Positions 1 through 7,778 of a DNA stretch of 7,778 nucleotides are shown here, piece after piece (the stretch's first letter is position 1; every line of letters starts with the position of its first letter). A model generated the notes under the pieces. That model was not told where the DNA came from. It saw only the letters and a list, made by a program, of their open reading frames with translations, and did not search any database. Source of the DNA: Patescibacteria group bacterium. Its GTDB lineage: Bacteria; Patescibacteriota; Minisyncoccia; Moranbacterales; UBA1568. The translations under genes and the position numbers were made by a program. The DNA is taken from NCBI GenBank assembly GCA_030917745.1, contig JAUPUC010000043.1, positions 1 through 7,778 on the forward strand, in the 5' to 3' direction.

Positions 1-1094
1 AAAAGGATGAAGATTGGCCGCAGACGCTCGAGGAGGTTTCGGCGTATTGTGTGAAGTGAACACGTGCCGCTCATGAGAAGTGGTGTGAGAGCGATAAGGA
101 AAATCATCAGAAAGTTGGAGACATATTTTGTCAGAAGTGCCATGCCAAAGAAGAATCCACTCCAGAGGAGATTGTGCTGCTGGCGTGTCGAGAGGAAAGC
201 AAAATAAGCAAAAAAAGAAAGTGAGAAAAAACCCCAAAGTAGTGCGTCTGGATTGATGATACGGGAGATACCGATGAGGACAGGTGATGTTCCGATGAGA
301 AGTGCGGTGAGTGCGCCGACTGATGGATTGGTAGCTCGTGATACAAAAATGAATATGAAGAAGAGAAGGAGAGTAGCGGTCAAGAGAATCGGGAGCCGGA
401 AAGAAGCAGACATGATTTCTGCTTTTGGATCGTACTGGCGTTCCTGTATCGGATCTGGTGAGAAACCAAAAAGAGCGGCTCCGCTGGTTAATAGAATGGT
501 GACGCCTGGCTTATCGCTGACGCGGGTGTTTGCAAATTCTCCCTCCCGGATATTTTCGAAGAAGCGAGGGATGCGTTCGTGAGTCCAGAGCGCTTCATCG
601 ATGATGGCTTGTTTACCGATACCACTCGCTCCGGTGAAAAAGAAGAAGGTGATTGCGAGCGCGACTATGATTCGGACGCTGTGTTGATGGGGAAGGGTAT
701 GAATAGATGGAATTGTTGTTTCTGTGAGCGGTGTGAGAGGGAGGAAGCGCATGAGAAGTAACGCTCCCGTTGAGAGAAACCAAAAGTCCAATACGAGCCA
801 GGGGAGAAGTGCTGGTTCCTCGGATGGCAGCATGCTGAAGAGAATCGGGAGAAGTGGGACAAGGGTGGAGAGGAAGAATGTGAGTGCTCTTCGCGTGTGA
901 CCCCGAGCAGTTTTCCAGGAGCATAGAGCGAGGCTTCCGTAAGCGAGACTGCAGATAAGAACCGCGATTTTGTCACCGAAGACATATCTGAAATCTGTTT
1001 TGAAAGAAAGAATGAAAACAAGACACCAAAAAATACTCAGACTTACCAGCCTGAACAGCGGAGAGAGATACCAGTTTTGATCGACAGAGCTCAT
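1..1094 (-). CDS. GT-C (PMT/ArnT-like) membrane glycosyltransferase, N-terminal part, cut by window edge
   Basis: This minus-strand reading frame stays open from the ATG at 1094-1092 to the left edge (364 full codons), so the C-terminus is missing. It is very hydrophobic. A TM segment near residues 139-155 leads into a loop with the acidic motif IIDEALW (residues 164-170), followed by the loop stretch RVSDKPGVTILL (191-202) and further TM pairs at about 232-251, 258-278, 285-302 and 310-340. A TM helix, then an Asp-Glu motif in the first outer loop, then a KPG-type stretch is typical of PMT/ArnT (GT39/GT83) enzymes, which move sugars from polyprenyl-phosphate donors outside the cytoplasm. Residues 1-138 are an extra N-terminal block with about four more TM helices. 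The start is uncertain: an in-frame ATG at 1142-1140 would add 16 residues, and one at 754-750 (Met115) would give a family-standard N-terminus. Acceptor and sugar cannot be read from the sequence. Confidence 0.85.
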   Translation of the reverse strand, partial: MSSVDQNWYLSPLFRLVSLSIFWCLVFILSFKTDFRYVFGDKIAVLICSLAYGSLALCSWKTARGHTRRALTFFLSTLVPLLPILFSMLPSEEPALLPWLVLDFWFLSTGALLLMRFLPLTPLTETTIPSIHTLPHQHSVRIIVALAITFFFFTGASGIGKQAIIDEALWTHERIPRFFENIREGEFANTRVSDKPGVTILLTSGAALFGFSPDPIQERQYDPKAEIMSASFRLPILLTATLLLFFIFIFVSRATNPSVGALTALLIGTSPVLIGISRIINPDALLWGFFSLSFFAYFAFLSTRQQHNLLWSGFFFGMALLTKYVSNFLMIFLIALTPLLMSGTCSLHTIRRNLLERLRPIFIL

Positions 1095-1109
1095 AGGGTA
1101 GGATACAAT
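1081..1109 (+). promoter_or_regulatory. Predicted sigma70-type promoter for the plus-strand GT-C gene
   Basis: TCGACA (1081-1086) and TACAAT (1104-1109) each match the consensus at 5 of 6 bases, with the optimal 17-base spacer. The predicted start near 1116 gives a leader of about 46 bases to the ATG at 1162. The -35 box lies within the first codons of the divergent minus-strand gene, so the two genes are wired through overlapping promoters. This rests on consensus matching only. Confidence 0.5.
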
Positions 1110-1154
1110 GGAGGCGATTCGATGAGGGCTTATTTTCCGCATCCAATTGTTTTG

Positions 1155-1184
1155 AGTATATATGTATATGGGATTGTCTGACAA
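1155..1184 (-). promoter_or_regulatory. Predicted sigma70-type promoter for the minus-strand GT-C gene
   Basis: Read on the minus strand, TTGTCA (1184-1179) and TATACT (1160-1155) each match the sigma70 consensus at 5 of 6 bases and are 18 bases apart. Transcription would start near 1148. That gives a leader of only about 6 bases to the ATG at 1142, or about 54 bases to the ATG at 1094. The -35 box lies inside the first codons of the divergent plus-strand gene. This rests on consensus matching only. Confidence 0.4.
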
Positions 1185-2976
1185 ACCTGTTCTTTGGTCA
1201 CGCGGATGGTGGCTCACTCTGCTTGCAGTGGCAATTATTCTTCTGTTTGGGGCTTTTTTACGTCTCTTTTACTTGGGTGATTGGCTTCATTTTGAACTTG
1301 ATCAGGCGCGCGATGCCCTGGTAATTGATGCAGCTCTCCTTGGAGGTCCGCTTGATCTGCCCCTGTTGGGACCGAAAGCCGGTGGGACATTTCTGCGTCT
1401 TGGGCCGGGATTTTATTGGTTAGAGTATTTCGGTGCTTGGGTATCGGGCGATACTGTTTTGGGAAGCGCGTGGGTGGTGGCTCTGTGCTCAATCGCGTCG
1501 ATTTTCCTCTTTTATCTCTTCTCGCGTCGATTTTCCTCGGCAGCGTCATCGGTAGCATTGACACTGCTTTTTTCGGTGTCGGCATTCTTGGTGCTTTATG
1601 GTCGCTTCGCGTGGAATCCCAATCTGATTCCCTTTTTCAGTTTGCTTGGTATGTACGCATTATTGCGGTCCGTTGATCGTCACGAAAAGTATATGGGACG
1701 CTGGCTTCTGGTTGCAGCCTTCGCTATCGGTCTTGCAACGCATATGCATTTCTTGGCTTTTCTCGCTCTCCCGACTATCGCGGGCTTATTTCTTCTGTGG
1801 CGACGACCACGGATTGCACTGCGATTTTGGTTAGGAGCAGGAGCAATCATTTTCGTTCTCTATGTTCCGATGATACTCAATGAGATCAAAACCGGCGGCA
1901 TGAACACTCGTGAATTTATCGGGGCAATCTCCGAAAAATCAACCAAGGAGGATCACCCATTGATCGAAAAAGCAGTGCGGAATACGAGTGAGTTTGCCTT
2001 GCATAGCTTCGTGTTGCTGACTGGCTTTGAGGGGGCGACTCTTCCTTCTCTTGTGATTCAGAATGGTACATTTGAATCAGTATGCGTAGGTCGATGTGAT
2101 CAGGGAAAGCCATATGGCATCGTGGCTCTTGTGTTACTTTTCTGCATGCTCTTGTCTCTCTTGTGGCTGTGGTGGCGGGAGACAGACCGGCGTAAGGAGG
2201 ATGTTTTGTTACTCTCTTTGCTCTGGTTCGGCGTGACTTTTGTCCTCTTCTTACCGCTTGCTTATGGTATTGCACCTCGTTTTTTCTTGTTGAATGCGCC
2301 AGTATTTTTCTTGCTGTTTGGATTTTTGTGGCGAGCTTTATCTCAGATAATACCCAAGCGGTATCATCTGGGAACGGTTGTGTTTTGGGGAGTGGTGATG
2401 GGTCTAGTCGCTTCTAACTTGTATTTTTTGGCTCATCGTTTTGAACAGCTACGTTTGGCGGGGAGCGAAGCTGTAGAAAGCCCTCCGGATCGTATTCTGA
2501 AAGAGCGTGTACGGGTGACTCGAGAACAGCAAGAACGCATTGCGGATTTTCTTGTGGAACGGACTCGTGAGGCGAACGTGCCACTCTATATGAGTAGTGA
2601 ACCGCAGTATCGTCGGGCATTGAAATATCTTCTCGACCAGAGAGGGATTGAGAGTATCAGCCCCAAAACGAATCAAGCGTATCGGCAAAGCATTTCGTTT
2701 GTCATTCTTCGTACCCAATCAGATCATGAAGCAGGCTTAGAGAAATATCGCTCTGCCTACATGATAGGGAATGCAGTTGCCTTCGGTACATTGACGGTAT
2801 TTGAGTTGCTGCCGAAACCCGAAAATATCATCGGTGAACGACAGGATTTTACGACAATTAAGGAAAGTCGTTCTCAGGCACCGCCACGCTATACACTCCG
2901 ACAGTTTCTCTATCCCAACTCATCGGATGTGACAATAGAGGACAGTGAGAACTTGGAAGACGAGGGAACGGAGTGA
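1162..2976 (+). CDS. GT-C-like multi-pass membrane glycosyltransferase (GT39/PMT_2-like)
   Basis: This 604-residue protein has about ten TM helices in residues 15-425 and a soluble tail at 430-604. After TM1 (about 15-37) the first outer loop carries FELDQARDAL (44-53), then a Gly/Pro-rich stretch with PLLGPKAGG (67-75) and LGPGFYWLEY (80-89). This is the acidic-motif loop of bacterial GT-C enzymes that use polyprenyl-phosphate sugars, with Asp47 the likely catalytic or metal-linked residue. Residues 241-317 form a long outer loop with a CxxxC pair (C308, C312). The mixed alpha/beta tail should face outward if TM parity holds, and could bind acceptor. ATG 1162 is the longest start; ATG 1168 is possible, and neither has a clear ribosome binding site. 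It is divergent to the other GT-C gene and lies 73 bases before ispG. The sugar and acceptor are unknown, and an oligosaccharide ligase or other GT-C role cannot be excluded. Confidence 0.82.
   Translation: MYMGLSDKPVLWSRGWWLTLLAVAIILLFGAFLRLFYLGDWLHFELDQARDALVIDAALLGGPLDLPLLGPKAGGTFLRLGPGFYWLEYFGAWVSGDTVLGSAWVVALCSIASIFLFYLFSRRFSSAASSVALTLLFSVSAFLVLYGRFAWNPNLIPFFSLLGMYALLRSVDRHEKYMGRWLLVAAFAIGLATHMHFLAFLALPTIAGLFLLWRRPRIALRFWLGAGAIIFVLYVPMILNEIKTGGMNTREFIGAISEKSTKEDHPLIEKAVRNTSEFALHSFVLLTGFEGATLPSLVIQNGTFESVCVGRCDQGKPYGIVALVLLFCMLLSLLWLWWRETDRRKEDVLLLSLLWFGVTFVLFLPLAYGIAPRFFLLNAPVFFLLFGFLWRALSQIIPKRYHLGTVVFWGVVMGLVASNLYFLAHRFEQLRLAGSEAVESPPDRILKERVRVTREQQERIADFLVERTREANVPLYMSSEPQYRRALKYLLDQRGIESISPKTNQAYRQSISFVILRTQSDHEAGLEKYRSAYMIGNAVAFGTLTVFELLPKPENIIGERQDFTTIKESRSQAPPRYTLRQFLYPNSSDVTIEDSENLEDEGTE
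1493..1538 (+). repeat. Imperfect tandem duplication: 17-bp direct repeat, 29-bp period
   Basis: TCGCGTCGATTTTCCTC occurs exactly at 1493-1509 and again at 1522-1538 inside the GT-C gene. The offset of 29 bases is not a multiple of three, so the copies are read in different frames (one gives ASIFL, the other SRRFSS). It may be a remnant of a slipped-strand duplication or a chance similarity in TM-coding DNA. Confidence 0.6.
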
Positions 2977-3022
2977 GAGTGCTACGTGCTGTGCTCTTGA
3001 GGTGTTGGACTTTGCATTCTTT

Positions 3023-3031
3023 TGGCATAAT
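3023..3031 (+). promoter_or_regulatory. Possible extended -10 element upstream of ispG
   Basis: TGG followed by CATAAT (3026-3031, 5 of 6 to TATAAT) forms an extended -10 element 18 bases before the ispG ATG. The best -35 candidate, TTGGAC at 3005-3010, is only 15 bases away, so the extended -10 would have to carry most of the recognition. It would give a leader of about 12 bases. It lies in the 73-bp gap after the GT-C gene, so read-through from that gene is also possible. Confidence 0.3.
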
Positions 3032-3049
3032 TCGGAAAATGGTATTCTC

Positions 3050-4234
3050 ATGAGTATGCGTCTTCAAGCCTTAGAGTCAAGAAGAAAAACACGAGTTATC
3101 CGAGTCGGCGATATTGGTATCGGAGGAGATGAACCAATTCGCGTTCAGACCATGACCAATACAGACACGCTCGATATCGAGGCGACCGCGGCGCAGACGG
3201 CACGTTGCGTCGAAGCGGGGGCTGAACTCATACGCATTACGACTCAGACGCCCAAGCACGCACGGGCATTGGCTGACATTCGGCAATTGCTCATAACACG
3301 CTATGGAATCAGCGTTCCTTTGATTGCCGATGTACATTTTTCGCAAGCAGCAGCGTTTGAAGCGCTCAAATGGGCTGATAAGGTTCGCCTCAATCCAGGG
3401 AACTTGCTCGACGCCAAGCTTCAGAAGACCCTGGAATATGAATCTGGAGCCTACGAAGAAGAATTGAAGCGCATCGAGAAAGGCTTGCTCCCGTTTATTG
3501 AAGAGGCCAAGCGACTCGCAAAACCGATTCGAATCGGAGCGAATCATGGATCACTGTCGGATCGTATTCTCTCTCGCTACGGCGACACCCCTCTGGGTAT
3601 GGTGGAATCGGCGATGGAATACTTACGTATATTTCATCGATATGGATATGATGAGATTGTTGTGGCTATGAAATCTTCTGATCCATTGGTGATGATTGAA
3701 GCAAATCGTTTGCTCGCGCAGACACTTCGGGTTGAAAATATGGACTATCCTCTCCACCTCGGCGTGACGGAAGCGGGAAGCGCGGAGGATGGGCGGGCAA
3801 AATCGACCATTGGTATTGGGACTATCCTGCTTGATGGTCTTGGTGATACGCTGCGTGTTTCTTTGACCGAGGCACCCGAGCGAGAAATTCCGGTTTGCTA
3901 TAGCATTTTACAGGCGACGCGGCGGCGGATAACAAAAACGGAATTTATCTCTTGTCCATCGTGCGGTCGGACTTTGTATGATATTGAAAGTGTGACTCAT
4001 CAAATCAAGATACGGATGGATCATCTGGTTGGGGTGCGTATCGCGGTGATGGGTTGTATCGTGAACGGAATCGGTGAAATGGCTGATGCGGATTTTGGAT
4101 ACGTTGGTGGCCGACCGGGCATGATTAACCTGTATTGGAAGAAGGCATTGGTGGAACGTGATGTGCCAGAGGCCGAGGCTATCAATCGGCTTGAATTGCT
4201 CATCAAAGAAAAGGGCTTGTGGGTGAATCGGTAA
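3050..4234 (+). CDS. ispG: 4-hydroxy-3-methylbut-2-en-1-yl diphosphate synthase (IspG/GcpE), plant-type sequence without the middle domain
   Basis: IspG reduces methylerythritol cyclodiphosphate to HMBPP in the MEP isoprenoid pathway, using a [4Fe-4S] cluster and a flavodoxin or ferredoxin donor. An N-terminal TIM-barrel domain spans about residues 10-280, with VQTMTNTDT (32-40), LIADVHF (91-97), RLNPGN (113-118), IGANHGSLSDR (162-172) and HLGVTEAG (236-243). The C-terminal cluster domain has CPSC (C302, C305) and MGCIVNGIGE (C336, E343), so all three cluster cysteines and the conserved Glu are present. The sequence follows the plant/Chlamydia type (NHGSLSDR, MADADFGYVGG), but the barrel runs straight into the cluster domain (residues 281-300) with no insert. 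At 394 residues it is near E. coli size. The start at 3050 (MSMRLQ) was chosen over an in-frame upstream ATG at 2945 that overlaps the previous gene; Met3 is an alternative. No Shine-Dalgarno sequence is seen. It sits among glycan genes, consistent with supplying polyprenyl carrier. Confidence 0.96.
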   Translation: MSMRLQALESRRKTRVIRVGDIGIGGDEPIRVQTMTNTDTLDIEATAAQTARCVEAGAELIRITTQTPKHARALADIRQLLITRYGISVPLIADVHFSQAAAFEALKWADKVRLNPGNLLDAKLQKTLEYESGAYEEELKRIEKGLLPFIEEAKRLAKPIRIGANHGSLSDRILSRYGDTPLGMVESAMEYLRIFHRYGYDEIVVAMKSSDPLVMIEANRLLAQTLRVENMDYPLHLGVTEAGSAEDGRAKSTIGIGTILLDGLGDTLRVSLTEAPEREIPVCYSILQATRRRITKTEFISCPSCGRTLYDIESVTHQIKIRMDHLVGVRIAVMGCIVNGIGEMADADFGYVGGRPGMINLYWKKALVERDVPEAEAINRLELLIKEKGLWVNR

Positions 4235-4261
4235 AGATGGGAATGCCGTGTTTTGCAGAGA

Positions 4262-4279
4262 TTGAGTATTTTTGAGTAT
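4262..4279 (+). repeat. Direct repeat of TTGAGTAT at 10-bp spacing in the ispG/beta-helix gene gap
   Basis: TTGAGTAT occurs at 4262-4269 and 4272-4279, one helical turn apart, in the 146-bp gap between ispG and the next gene. A third copy lies at 1152-1159, just upstream of the GT-C ATG. It could be a regulatory half-site, but the motif is short. The rest of this gap (4235-4380) shows no convincing terminator hairpin; TATGAT at 4304-4309 is a weak -10 candidate with no matching -35. Confidence 0.35.
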
Positions 4280-4380
4280 CGCGGTTGTGTCAGATAGGTT
4301 CTTTATGATAGAAATGAAGAAAGATATGTGCTGAAAGGGAGTGTATTTGGAGTACTTGATGAGTCCGAAGAGACAAGTTT

Positions 4381-6687
4381 ATGATACACGGAAGAAATAG
4401 AGTGGGTTGGCAGATACTTATTTTTGTATTTTGTCTTTTGGTTTTGGCACCAGCTGGATCGGCGCGAGCTGCTTCTCCGGATTATTTTGTTGAGGCAGGA
4501 AAAAATGGGGATGGTTCGGAGTCTGATCCCTTTGGATCTATTGCGGAAGCGGTTGAAGAAATTTCAGAGCATGGTGGAAAATCTATTTTGGTTCGTGCGG
4601 GCAAGTATAATGAAGCCTTCACTCTTCCAAAGGGTGTTTCTCTCGTGGGCGAGGGTGATCGGGACAATGTCTGGTTGAAGCAGAAGATGCGTATGGAGGA
4701 CGGAAGTGAGGTGCAAAATCTTGCCTTCACTGAAAGAGGCGGTATTATTGTTGGCGGAGGTGCCGATGTGACTATTCAGAATATCCATGTGAAGAATGTC
4801 ACGGCTATCGGAATTAATGCCGAGCCAGGTGACGGTCGATTAGTGATGGAGGAGATTTTGATCGAAGGAGCGCGTAAGGGTCTGTATATTCAAAAGGGAC
4901 GTGAGATAATCATAAAAGACTCTGAAGTGTCATACAATCGTGAGGAAGGAGCAGATATCCGAAATCAAGTTTCTGGTAGCATTACTGAGAGTCGTTTCCG
5001 GAATAATAAAGAATCAGGCATCGAGGTTATTCTGGGTGCTTCAAAGATATCGATACATTCGAATATCGTTAAAGACAATGGTTCGAGCGGAATTGCAACC
5101 CAGTTCTTGTTTGGTGAAGATCGTGCGGGTGACGTCCGAATTGAAGACAATACGATTGAGGGGAGCACGAACTACGGCATTGATTGTCGGATACCGGGCG
5201 GTGGGCCTTTCGCTGGTGATTATTTTCTCAATTCGCTTCGTATTGAAGGGAATACCTATAAGGGGAATCAGAAGGGTGATATTGCCCCGCGTTGTAAGGT
5301 TCTGACAGAAGAAGAGTCTCGAGCATTAGCGGAGAAGGAGGCTCGGGAACAGGAATGGGAAGCGAAGCGTCAGGCGCCGTTACTGCTTTCGGAAACAGAG
5401 CTGTCTCGTCGTACCTTGGCGGCCGCTCAGGAACGCAAGGCGTATGATGAGATTCAGATCAGTGATGAGCGGGAACGCTTCGGACAATCCGGAGAGAGTC
5501 TCAATGCGGCGCTTTTGCACATGGAACGGTATGTTCAAGAAATGTCAGAACGTTCCTCATTTGCCTGTTTTTTTCTTGGCAGAGATGTTGCCGCGAATCG
5601 TGCGTTCAGAGCGACCTTTGATAAGGCAGAATCAGTACTCGATGTCTTAGAACAGGGGGGGCAAGGAATCAAATATGATGAAAATCGACGGGTTTTTCAG
5701 GAGGTATTGTCAGTGAGTCGTGGGCGATTGGTAGATATGCAGGCGCGAGTTGAGGGATTGCCCGTGTGTCAGTTTTCTCTCCTTGGAAACATGACGCGAT
5801 GGTTTGCGGAGCGGCGTGATACAAAGCGGATTGTGTCAGAGGAGGAATGGCATCAGGTGGAGCAATCGCTCCCTGGGAACGGAAAAAAGATTCTCCTCCT
5901 CGGGACTTTGTCCTGGACGCCGTTTGTTCGGAATCAGGTTGTAGAGAAAGGAGACGAGTATCTTTTTCGACAGATACGAGATGAATTGCGTGGATACGAT
6001 ACAGTAGTTGCTGATATTGCATTACCGATACTGAATGCCGCTGACCCGGTACCCGCGGCTCGGGCAGTGCGTCCGGTATCACTTCCTTCGCGCCTCGCGA
6101 ATATCTTCTCAGCGAATAATATCCGTCTCTTGAGTGTAACCGGTCTTTCTGATCACGATCTTATGACCACAAAGTTGCTCGCCCAAACTGAAGCGAATTT
6201 ACAGGATACGAGTGCCGATGTGTTTGGATCTTCTGGGAAAAATGCGGCGCGAATACTGGGAGAAAAAACAGTACGCTTTTTTGGGTATGACGAAGGGAAA
6301 CCGCAGCGTCTGGAGAGGATACTGACTGAGATAGCGGAGGCAAGGAAGTCCGCCAACGCGCTCATCGTGTATGTCGCTTGGAAGAAAACAGCTTCTTCAA
6401 TAGCAAATGCGGAGCGGATGAATGAGCAGCGTTTACTTGTAGAGCGTCTTATTGAAGTGGGAGCAGATATAGTCGTTGGTACCGGAGTGTCGTTGCCGAT
6501 TCAGTCAGAAGACATTTCAGGCCATCGGGTGTATTATTCTCTGGGAGACATGTTCCCGGTTACCGAGTCTCCGGATGGATTTTCGGCCATTTCAATCGGT
6601 TTTGATCAGTCAGGTTCTCTGGTGATTGAGGAGCGGAAGGGCAGATATGATGGAGATGAAGGCGTTGTCTTCCCGAGCAGTGAGTGA
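4381..6687 (+). CDS. Secreted parallel beta-helix protein with C-terminal degenerate CapA/PgsA-like domain
   Basis: This 768-residue protein begins with a Sec signal peptide: basic start, hydrophobic core at about 11-24, and SARA-A cleavage near residue 30. Residues 34-90 match the opening of DUF1565/NosD-type beta-helix proteins (YFVEAGKNGDG, then DPFGSIAEAVEE, then ILVRAGKYNE and GVSLVGEG). About nine helix rungs follow to about 300, with repeats such as VTIQNIHVKN and VRIEDNTIEG. Residues 308-365 are charged and likely coiled coil, and 366-500 are helical. Residues 502-752 follow the CapA/PgsA (PGA_cap) order, ending in GADIVVG (694-700) and YYSLGDMF (718-725), but the metal-ligand motifs are replaced. 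The mature protein has four cysteines, in two close pairs (C269/C305, C396/C463). ATG 4381 is well supported by the signal peptide. It lies upstream of the sugar-lipid synthase. A binding or scaffold role at the cell surface is inferred; beta-helices often bind or cleave polysaccharide, but no catalytic residues are evident. Confidence 0.8.
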   Translation: MIHGRNRVGWQILIFVFCLLVLAPAGSARAASPDYFVEAGKNGDGSESDPFGSIAEAVEEISEHGGKSILVRAGKYNEAFTLPKGVSLVGEGDRDNVWLKQKMRMEDGSEVQNLAFTERGGIIVGGGADVTIQNIHVKNVTAIGINAEPGDGRLVMEEILIEGARKGLYIQKGREIIIKDSEVSYNREEGADIRNQVSGSITESRFRNNKESGIEVILGASKISIHSNIVKDNGSSGIATQFLFGEDRAGDVRIEDNTIEGSTNYGIDCRIPGGGPFAGDYFLNSLRIEGNTYKGNQKGDIAPRCKVLTEEESRALAEKEAREQEWEAKRQAPLLLSETELSRRTLAAAQERKAYDEIQISDERERFGQSGESLNAALLHMERYVQEMSERSSFACFFLGRDVAANRAFRATFDKAESVLDVLEQGGQGIKYDENRRVFQEVLSVSRGRLVDMQARVEGLPVCQFSLLGNMTRWFAERRDTKRIVSEEEWHQVEQSLPGNGKKILLLGTLSWTPFVRNQVVEKGDEYLFRQIRDELRGYDTVVADIALPILNAADPVPAARAVRPVSLPSRLANIFSANNIRLLSVTGLSDHDLMTTKLLAQTEANLQDTSADVFGSSGKNAARILGEKTVRFFGYDEGKPQRLERILTEIAEARKSANALIVYVAWKKTASSIANAERMNEQRLLVERLIEVGADIVVGTGVSLPIQSEDISGHRVYYSLGDMFPVTESPDGFSAISIGFDQSGSLVIEERKGRYDGDEGVVFPSSE

Positions 6688-6734
6688 TTAGGTGTTCGGG
6701 ATAGACCTGAAAGTGTGCTCTGGTAAGCAAATTT

Positions 6735-6740
6735 TATAAT
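6735..6740 (+). promoter_or_regulatory. Perfect TATAAT -10 element close upstream of the GT2 gene
   Basis: TATAAT lies in an AT-rich stretch of the 67-bp gap, with 14 bases between it and the ATG at 6755. A start near 6747 would give a leader of about 8 bases, too short for a ribosome binding site. No good -35 is found at 16-18 bases upstream. The gap has no convincing terminator; the only pairing is a 4-bp stem near 6690. Confidence 0.35.
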
Positions 6741-6754
6741 TTATTTTCTCATGT

Positions 6755-7696
6755 ATGACTGAACCGATGCCGTACCTCTCGATTGTGGTACCACTGTACA
6801 ATGAAGAAGGAAACGTGGAACTTCTCCATCAGAAAATCCATACAGCCCTCGAAAAAATCGGCAAACCATTTGAGATTCTTTTTGTGGATGATGGCTCGAA
6901 GGATAAGACACGCGCGGAAGCAGAGCGCTGTAAGCCGGTTACTCTTATTGTGTTTCGCAAGAACTTTGGTCAGACAGCGGCTTTTGATGCTGGAATCAAG
7001 GAGGCTCGGGGTGAGATTATCATCACGCTTGATGGCGACCTTCAGAATGATCCCGCGGATATCCCTCTGTTGCTGGCTAAGATTGATGAGGGATTTGATG
7101 TGGTGTCAGGATGGCGACATAAACGTCATGATCCTTGGAGTAAGAAAATTCCATCTCGTATTGCCAATTTCCTTCGCAAAGTCCTGATTCATGATGACAT
7201 ACATGATTCAGGGTGTAGTTTGAAGGCATATCGGAGAGAGTGTTTCAGAGATATTGACTTGTTTGGCGAGATGCATCGTTTCATCCCTGCATTACTTCAG
7301 TTGGAGGGTTTTCGGGTAGCCGAAGTCAAAGTGAGTCATCATCCGCGTATTCATGGTGTGACCAAGTACAACTGGAAACGTGGGTTGAAGGGTTTTGTGG
7401 ATATGATTTCTATTTGGTTTTGGCGAAAATATTCCCACCGACCATTGCATCTTTTTGGAGGTGTCGGAGTGGCCCTGATTGGACTTGGTGGTGTGATGCT
7501 CTCCTGGATGTTTATTGAAAAAATTGTCTTTCAATCACCAATTGCTGATCGGATTTGGCCACTGATGGGTATTTTCTTTGTGCTGATCGGAGTCCAGCTT
7601 TTTATTTCGGGATTGCTTGCGGATATTGTCGTGAGGAATTATTATCAGTCGCGACATCGGATGAATTATAATGTGAAAGAAGTCATAATTCGGTAG
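6755..7696 (+). CDS. Polyprenyl-phosphate glycosyltransferase, GT2 family (GtrB/DPM1/ArnC-like)
   Basis: The enzyme would transfer a sugar from a nucleotide sugar to polyprenyl phosphate on the inner membrane face, making the lipid-linked donor used by GT-C enzymes. Its 313 residues are normal for the GtrB type. The GT-A domain covers residues 7-225: IVVPLYNEE (10-18), FVDDGSKD (43-50), the metal-binding DxD motif within TLDGDLQNDP (91-100), GWRHKR (119-124), DSGCSLKAYRR (151-161) and GEMHRFIPAL (171-180). Two TM helices follow at about 231-253 and 268-290, as in GtrB. A short cytoplasmic tail ends the protein. The start at 6755 was chosen because the out-of-frame ATG at 6751 hits a stop after three codons; Met5 (6767) is an alternative. 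No Shine-Dalgarno sequence is visible. The next gene begins 14 bases after its stop, so the two are probably co-transcribed. The sugar (mannose, glucose or another) cannot be told from sequence alone. Confidence 0.93.
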   Translation: MTEPMPYLSIVVPLYNEEGNVELLHQKIHTALEKIGKPFEILFVDDGSKDKTRAEAERCKPVTLIVFRKNFGQTAAFDAGIKEARGEIIITLDGDLQNDPADIPLLLAKIDEGFDVVSGWRHKRHDPWSKKIPSRIANFLRKVLIHDDIHDSGCSLKAYRRECFRDIDLFGEMHRFIPALLQLEGFRVAEVKVSHHPRIHGVTKYNWKRGLKGFVDMISIWFWRKYSHRPLHLFGGVGVALIGLGGVMLSWMFIEKIVFQSPIADRIWPLMGIFFVLIGVQLFISGLLADIVVRNYYQSRHRMNYNVKEVIIR

Positions 7697-7710: not shown

Positions 7711-7778
7711 ATGAAACTCGCTTTTGTTGGAACTGGGTATGTGGGATTAGTTTCTGGGGTGTGTATGGCGGAGCTTGG
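7711..7778 (+). CDS. UDP-glucose/GDP-mannose dehydrogenase, N-terminal fragment cut by window edge
   Basis: Only 22 codons and two bases lie in the window. They begin MKLAFVGTGYVGLVSGVCMA, which is the opening of the UDP-glucose 6-dehydrogenase/GDP-mannose dehydrogenase family: a first beta strand and the NAD-binding GxGYVG loop (residues 7-12), followed by the LVSG helix start. Family members oxidise a nucleotide sugar to its uronic acid, most often UDP-glucose to UDP-glucuronate, for capsule and exopolysaccharide. UDP-glucose is the commonest substrate for this exact opening, but the fragment cannot settle specificity. ATG 7711 lies 14 bases after the GT2 stop with no strong ribosome binding site. 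The frame reaches the right edge open. Confidence 0.9.
   Translation, partial: MKLAFVGTGYVGLVSGVCMAEL

Follow-up and report, generated by a model that had tools for sequence, protein, structure and literature searches.

Can a domain that has lost the metal site of its enzyme family still serve a bacterium as part of a secreted protein, and if so, in what manner? The question is raised by contig JAUPUC010000043.1 of a Patescibacteria genome of the order Moranbacterales, the whole 7,778-nt stretch of which is termed here the window, with positions counted from its first letter. An open reading frame (ORF) on its forward strand (4381–6687; 768 residues and a stop codon) combines, according to its sequence and a full-length model, a secretion signal, a β-helix, a helical stalk and a CapA-like domain. 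An earlier reading of the DNA alone (the original prediction) had singled out this last domain as a candidate secreted pseudoenzyme. The fold, secretion and stalk of the protein are predictions, whereas its sequence relationships are described below as found.

A CapA-type domain without its metal-site residues

The domain in question occupies residues 500–752 (5878–6636, forward strand) and was assigned by profile, alignment and model as CapA/PGA_cap-like, of calcineurin fold. It scores 41.4 bits against PGA_cap (PF09587) in the context of the whole protein and 45.3 bits when taken alone, the curated cut-off being 27. Intact CapA ORFs of the order itself also yielded a profile, which aligned with the domain over profile positions 51–294 of 374; the E-value was 1e-19 among 334 ORFs, from which ORFs with X and near-copies (the same last 150 residues) had been removed beforehand. 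When modelled alone with AlphaFold2 (AF2; 51 rows of alignment used, 9 of the 60 domain rows left out), the domain is confident and globular, and its predicted fold is MslH-like and calcineurin-like. The C-terminal domain is thus a relative of the CapA-type, calcineurin-fold enzymes, as had been proposed, and the predicted fold agrees with the reading of the protein as a secreted pseudoenzyme built on a CapA fold.

In order to compare the metal sites, 60 PGA_cap-type domains were aligned; the match G032:C7 (20.2 bits, below the cut-off) was not among them. The set Asp, Asn-x-Glu, Asn-Asn-His, His and His-Pro-His is kept in all 54 intact domains of the order. The window protein (P0001), its database relatives P0002, P0003 and P0004, and the protein of genome G015 (L004) each retain none of these nine residues, although a gap in the G015 protein makes its alignment columns around the Asn-Asn-His loop less certain. 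In the window protein, all on the forward strand, the alignment places Thr509 (5905–5907) at the family Asp (MslH Asp11), Asp545-Ile-Ala547 (6013–6021) at Asn-Leu-Glu (MslH Glu44 corresponding to Ala547), Gly588-Leu-Ser590 (6142–6150) at Asn-Asn-His (MslH Asn87 and His88 corresponding to Leu589 and Ser590), Ala666 (6376–6378) at the His equivalent to MslH His259, with the adjacent Trp667 kept, and Gly702-Val-Ser704 (6484–6492) at His-Pro-His, where the second His is MslH His295 and corresponds to Ser704. The MslH equivalences derive from the alignments together with PMC10406935. The substituted motifs had been read correctly in the original prediction (GTLSWTP at 508–514, DIA at 545–547, TGLSDHD at 587–593, AWK at 666–668, GTGVS at 700–704 and YSLGDMF at 719–725), and the loss of the metal-site residues is common to all four full-length relatives found.

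The contention that ligands were lost while structural motifs stayed holds in its first half and only partly in its second. Of 29 further positions that 90% or more of the 54 intact domains conserve, the window protein keeps 14, versus none of the nine ligands (Fisher p = 0.014). The counts for P0001–P0004 and the G015 protein are 14, 14, 14, 13 and 16, and the same test gives p = 0.005–0.016 for the four relatives, the proteins not being independent of one another. Since 15 of the 29 non-ligand positions have also changed, the domain has diverged broadly in addition to losing its ligands; the YYSLG stretch is kept in the window clade. Within TGLSDHD, the loss of Asn-Asn-His stands, but the final Asp (593) is not clearly a retained residue, because the residue three positions after the His is Asn in 43 and Asp in 11 of the 54 intact domains of the order.

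By the sequence criterion, i.e., an enzyme homologue without the catalytic residues, with the loss common to five proteins of one clade, the domain is a pseudoenzyme, and we class it as a degenerate CapA homologue rather than a CapA enzyme. It differs from the CapA/PgsA family (PF09587, including MslH, PDB 8GQ9) in the loss of all nine metal-site residues and in its placement behind a β-helix and stalk. MslH itself is a lasso-peptide tryptophan epimerase of this family, according to its report (PMC10406935). Membership in the MslH type was judged by a score above the curated cut-off of NF038314 and by the dyads His88/Asp91 and His295/Asp11. The window domain reaches 28.8 bits against a cut-off of 700, with His88, His295 and Asp11 replaced by Ser590, Ser704 and Thr509, respectively; given a score so far under the cut-off, it is not an MslH epimerase.

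Catalysis might nevertheless persist through an active site that has been rebuilt, works without metal or lies elsewhere in the domain. Some so-called pseudoenzymes may indeed have migrated catalytic residues (PMC10211241), and several polar residues are invariant in all five proteins, including Ser511, Arg517, Asp525, Asp555, Ser570, Arg571, Arg582, Glu638 and Glu645. Neither a His nor a Cys, however, is invariant in the domain among the five full-length proteins. The absence of any invariant His renders another conserved two-metal His/Asp site, for which a check had been suggested, very unlikely, and an intact enzyme with a shifted site was rejected as the principal explanation. The former active-site loops show no clear excess of conservation (see below), and confidence in the interior of the model is lowest (residues ~550–569, 590–599 and 670–679) immediately behind three of the former ligand motifs. 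A changed but working enzyme therefore appears very improbable to us.

Relatives and origin of the fusion

The window protein is 89, 77 and 64% identical to P0002, P0003 and P0004, respectively, and the G015 protein, from another genus of the same family, is 35–37% identical. A profile of the window protein gave strong matches (E ≤ 1e-30) in 39 of 128 genomes of the order. The match is full length, i.e., includes the fusion, only in G000 and G015; the other 37 comprise 29 genomes with open frames of 429–529 residues and eight with frames of 320–348 residues, at least one of which (G103) ends with its contig. Among 383 sampled genomes of the class, the full-length fusion occurred once, in the window's own genome, G015 not being among the matches there.

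The CapA-like domain is thus an appendage on a wider β-helix protein family, a circumstance that lay outside the view of the original prediction. The unfused β-helix/stalk proteins of Moranbacteria and relatives (PF13229/NosD-like) align with residues 1 to ~480 of the window protein and stop about where the CapA-like domain starts, whereas the five fusion proteins continue beyond that point. An FSL-x-G motif stands in the stalk of the window protein at 465–469; P0001 and P0004 carry this form and P0002 and P0003 a near form, at around residues 454–469, while the G015 protein has the exact motif at 479, and in each the CapA-like domain then follows. Among the unfused relatives of 429–529 residues in the fetched neighbourhoods, 10 of 31 end with the exact motif and 22 of 31 with a looser aromatic pattern, which was formulated after inspecting them; a uniform FSL-x-G end in all unfused relatives therefore fails. 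The simplest inference from these alignments is that a CapA-type domain was fused to the end of an older β-helix/stalk protein.

In a tree without an outgroup, a branch with support values of 100/99 and a long stem separates the five fusion proteins from all others. Because they are grouped together in this way, the ligands were probably lost before the two genera separated, provided that the gene was inherited vertically. PGA_cap matches occur in 54 of the 128 genomes of the order; G015 possesses a separate, intact CapA (on contig C9), and the window genome (76.5% completeness) has no match besides the fused copy. A phage origin was also considered, and one scan of viral contigs with the domain gave no relative.

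A second protein with a CapA-like domain that has lost most of its metal-site residues was observed in genome G121 (locus L116, G121:C32:4000-9000; ORF 1418–3001, forward strand; PGA_cap 68.9 bits), which also encodes an intact CapA on contig C37. In this domain the substitutions fall on the Glu, on the last two residues of Asn-Asn-His, on the His preceding Trp and on each His of His-Pro-His. Unlike the window protein, it has a Memo domain as N-terminal partner and keeps the Asp and two Asn residues. A link with the window clade lacks support, although a common origin was not rejected (p-AU 0.30), with both branches long.

Constraint on the domain and its possible role

The suggestion that the fold was kept for binding is not established by the sequences: in the former active-site loops, conservation does not clearly exceed that seen elsewhere in the domain, whereas intact CapA proteins do show such an excess in each of four sets compared (p = 5e-5 to 2e-8; two of the sets have four rows in common). 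Within the window clade, the four close relatives show a slightly higher share of invariant residues in the loops (26 of 39 positions versus 104 of 212 others; p = 0.055), yet the excess is not significant with another loop definition or with the G015 relative included (p = 0.20, 1.0 and 0.27). A conserved, re-used pocket is thus unsupported, and any binding by the domain is probably not through the old pocket. This bears on the proposal that the domain acts in the manner of a lectin, holding a sugar or polymer in that pocket without turnover; the location of the gene among glycosyltransferase genes would accord with it, as would the borderline excess in the close relatives, but the disappearance of that excess in the other comparisons leads us to regard it as rather improbable.

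The explanation that we favour, while considering it evenly poised between right and wrong, is that a CapA relative without its nine metal-site residues now serves for docking, as a rigid module without catalysis that follows a β-helix and a predicted helical stalk on the cell surface. An intact CapA-type domain would have been fused onto the end of a β-helix/stalk protein in one family of the order, the fused copy would have been freed from catalysis, and selection would now keep its outer surface in order to hold a partner, be it a glycan, a wall component or an envelope protein. Its manner of working may resemble that of the retromer subunit VPS29, in which the same kind of fold is a metal-independent scaffold without phosphatase activity. 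VPS29, however, is mammalian and belongs to another family, the likeness being in manner of working and not in membership, and it retains low-affinity metal binding according to PMC3101248.

Several observations weigh against the docking module. The AF2 alignment held intact CapA rows, owing to which the model takes the CapA fold more readily. The old pocket, as noted, lacks a clear excess of conservation, and the fusion occurs in only two of the 128 genomes of the order. Moreover, the identity of the domain is below that of the β-helix (63 versus 77% for P0004 and 30 versus 48% for G015), so that the constraint on the domain is moderate. The rarity of the fusion and the unremarkable pocket would equally suit a decaying passenger, i.e., a fused copy of CapA that selection scarcely maintains, if at all, and that is being lost, as would the long branches and the empty place in G001, a genome of the same genus. 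Such a passenger would hardly be expected to persist at full length in five proteins from two or more genera, to match the stalk of the same protein in its identity among relatives, to keep 13–16 of 29 non-ligand positions versus none of nine ligands, as well as YYSLG, and to yield a confident globular model. We thus consider decay unlikely.

A bolder form of the docking-module explanation, which we put forward tentatively and hold to be doubtful, is that one Moranbacteria lineage recruited the CapA fold as a catalytically dead docking head for a β-helix stalk, forming a new surface adaptor that ties the outer glycan machinery (PMT and GT2, with a flippase in some related genomes) to a cell-surface partner. 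By analogy, it would do outside a bacterial cell what VPS29 does in the retromer, and would be the first scaffold of the CapA family to emerge from our searches. Neither a CapA-family pseudoenzyme nor the window protein appeared in the titles and abstract beginnings among the matches listed.

To our knowledge, pseudoenzymes are best studied in eukaryotic signalling, and hardly any surface protein of the Moranbacteria has been characterised. If correct, the docking module would show how a small-genome bacterium builds surface parts from spare enzyme folds. It would also represent a secreted bacterial pseudoenzyme whose origin can be traced: a single lineage would have acquired it as an extension of a surface protein already present, while an intact CapA persists in a related genus. 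The latter protein (G015:C9) provides an intact control for metal, activity and binding tests on a defined Moranbacteria surface domain.

Other features of the protein and its locus

The N-terminal residues 1–30 (4381–4470, forward strand) form a probable Sec signal peptide, as judged by eye from the sequence, with Ala-Arg-Ala preceding residue 31 and a hydrophobic helix at 5–22 in the model. Residues 31–305 (4471–5295, forward) match a right-handed β-helix (PF13229, 1.3e-14), which is modelled with pLDDT values mostly of 93–98 and a few lower blocks. The predicted helical stalk comprises residues 306–482 (5296–5826, forward), with predicted helices at 310–331, 338–389, 393–399, 403–427, 433–458 and 469–482. 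The full-length model (35 alignment rows used, 11 of 46 left out) has a pTM of 0.47 and a poor C-terminal domain, where only five rows align, and no use was made of its domain orientation. Within 4200–6800, scans for promoters and terminators gave counts ~1.6–1.7 standard deviations above shuffled sequences and were not used as support.

The gene order in the window, as identified by profile matches on the forward strand, is a PMT_2-family (GT-C) glycosyltransferase (1162–2976), IspG/GcpE (2945–4234), the fusion gene and a glycosyltransferase of family GT2 (6755–7696). A PMT-family gene is close by in two genera: in G015, the fusion gene directly adjoins the closest relative of the window PMT gene. 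In G001, GT2 directly follows PMT with neither IspG nor the fusion gene between them, and IspG is absent from this place in G015 as well. A second PMT_2 (GT-C) ORF (3–1268, reverse strand; 4.2e-11) lies divergently upstream of the PMT gene and has relatives at the same place in G001, G003 and G015. At the other end (7711–7778, forward) begins an ORF that, judging by its motif, may encode the N-terminus of a UDP-glucose/GDP-mannose dehydrogenase.

Among 42 neighbourhoods of β-helix genes, including the window and many short contigs, a Wzx-like flippase occurs in nine and a PMT relative in 11, so a minority of the loci link the family to surface-glycan genes. Calcineurin-like phosphoesterase genes were found at loci L129, L134, L147, L157 and L163. 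With the seed locus left out, relatives of the L129 gene stand near β-helix genes in four of 40 neighbourhoods; in an exploratory count, five such genes were found versus 0.35–0.38 expected (Poisson 3e-5 to 6e-4), excluding a match (G097:C14:11103-11813) that touches the edge of L164. This excess is only a lead, because the seed was picked post hoc and PMT loci seem to attract such genes.

Finally, in G030, from another family of the order, a β-helix relative (L133, G030:C8:1-9000; 2–1456, forward) carries a bacterial SH3 domain in its C-terminal part, followed by an apparent transmembrane helix, where the window protein has its stalk and CapA-like domain. The presence of SH3 there suggests that the C-terminal end of β-helix proteins may be a place for binding modules.
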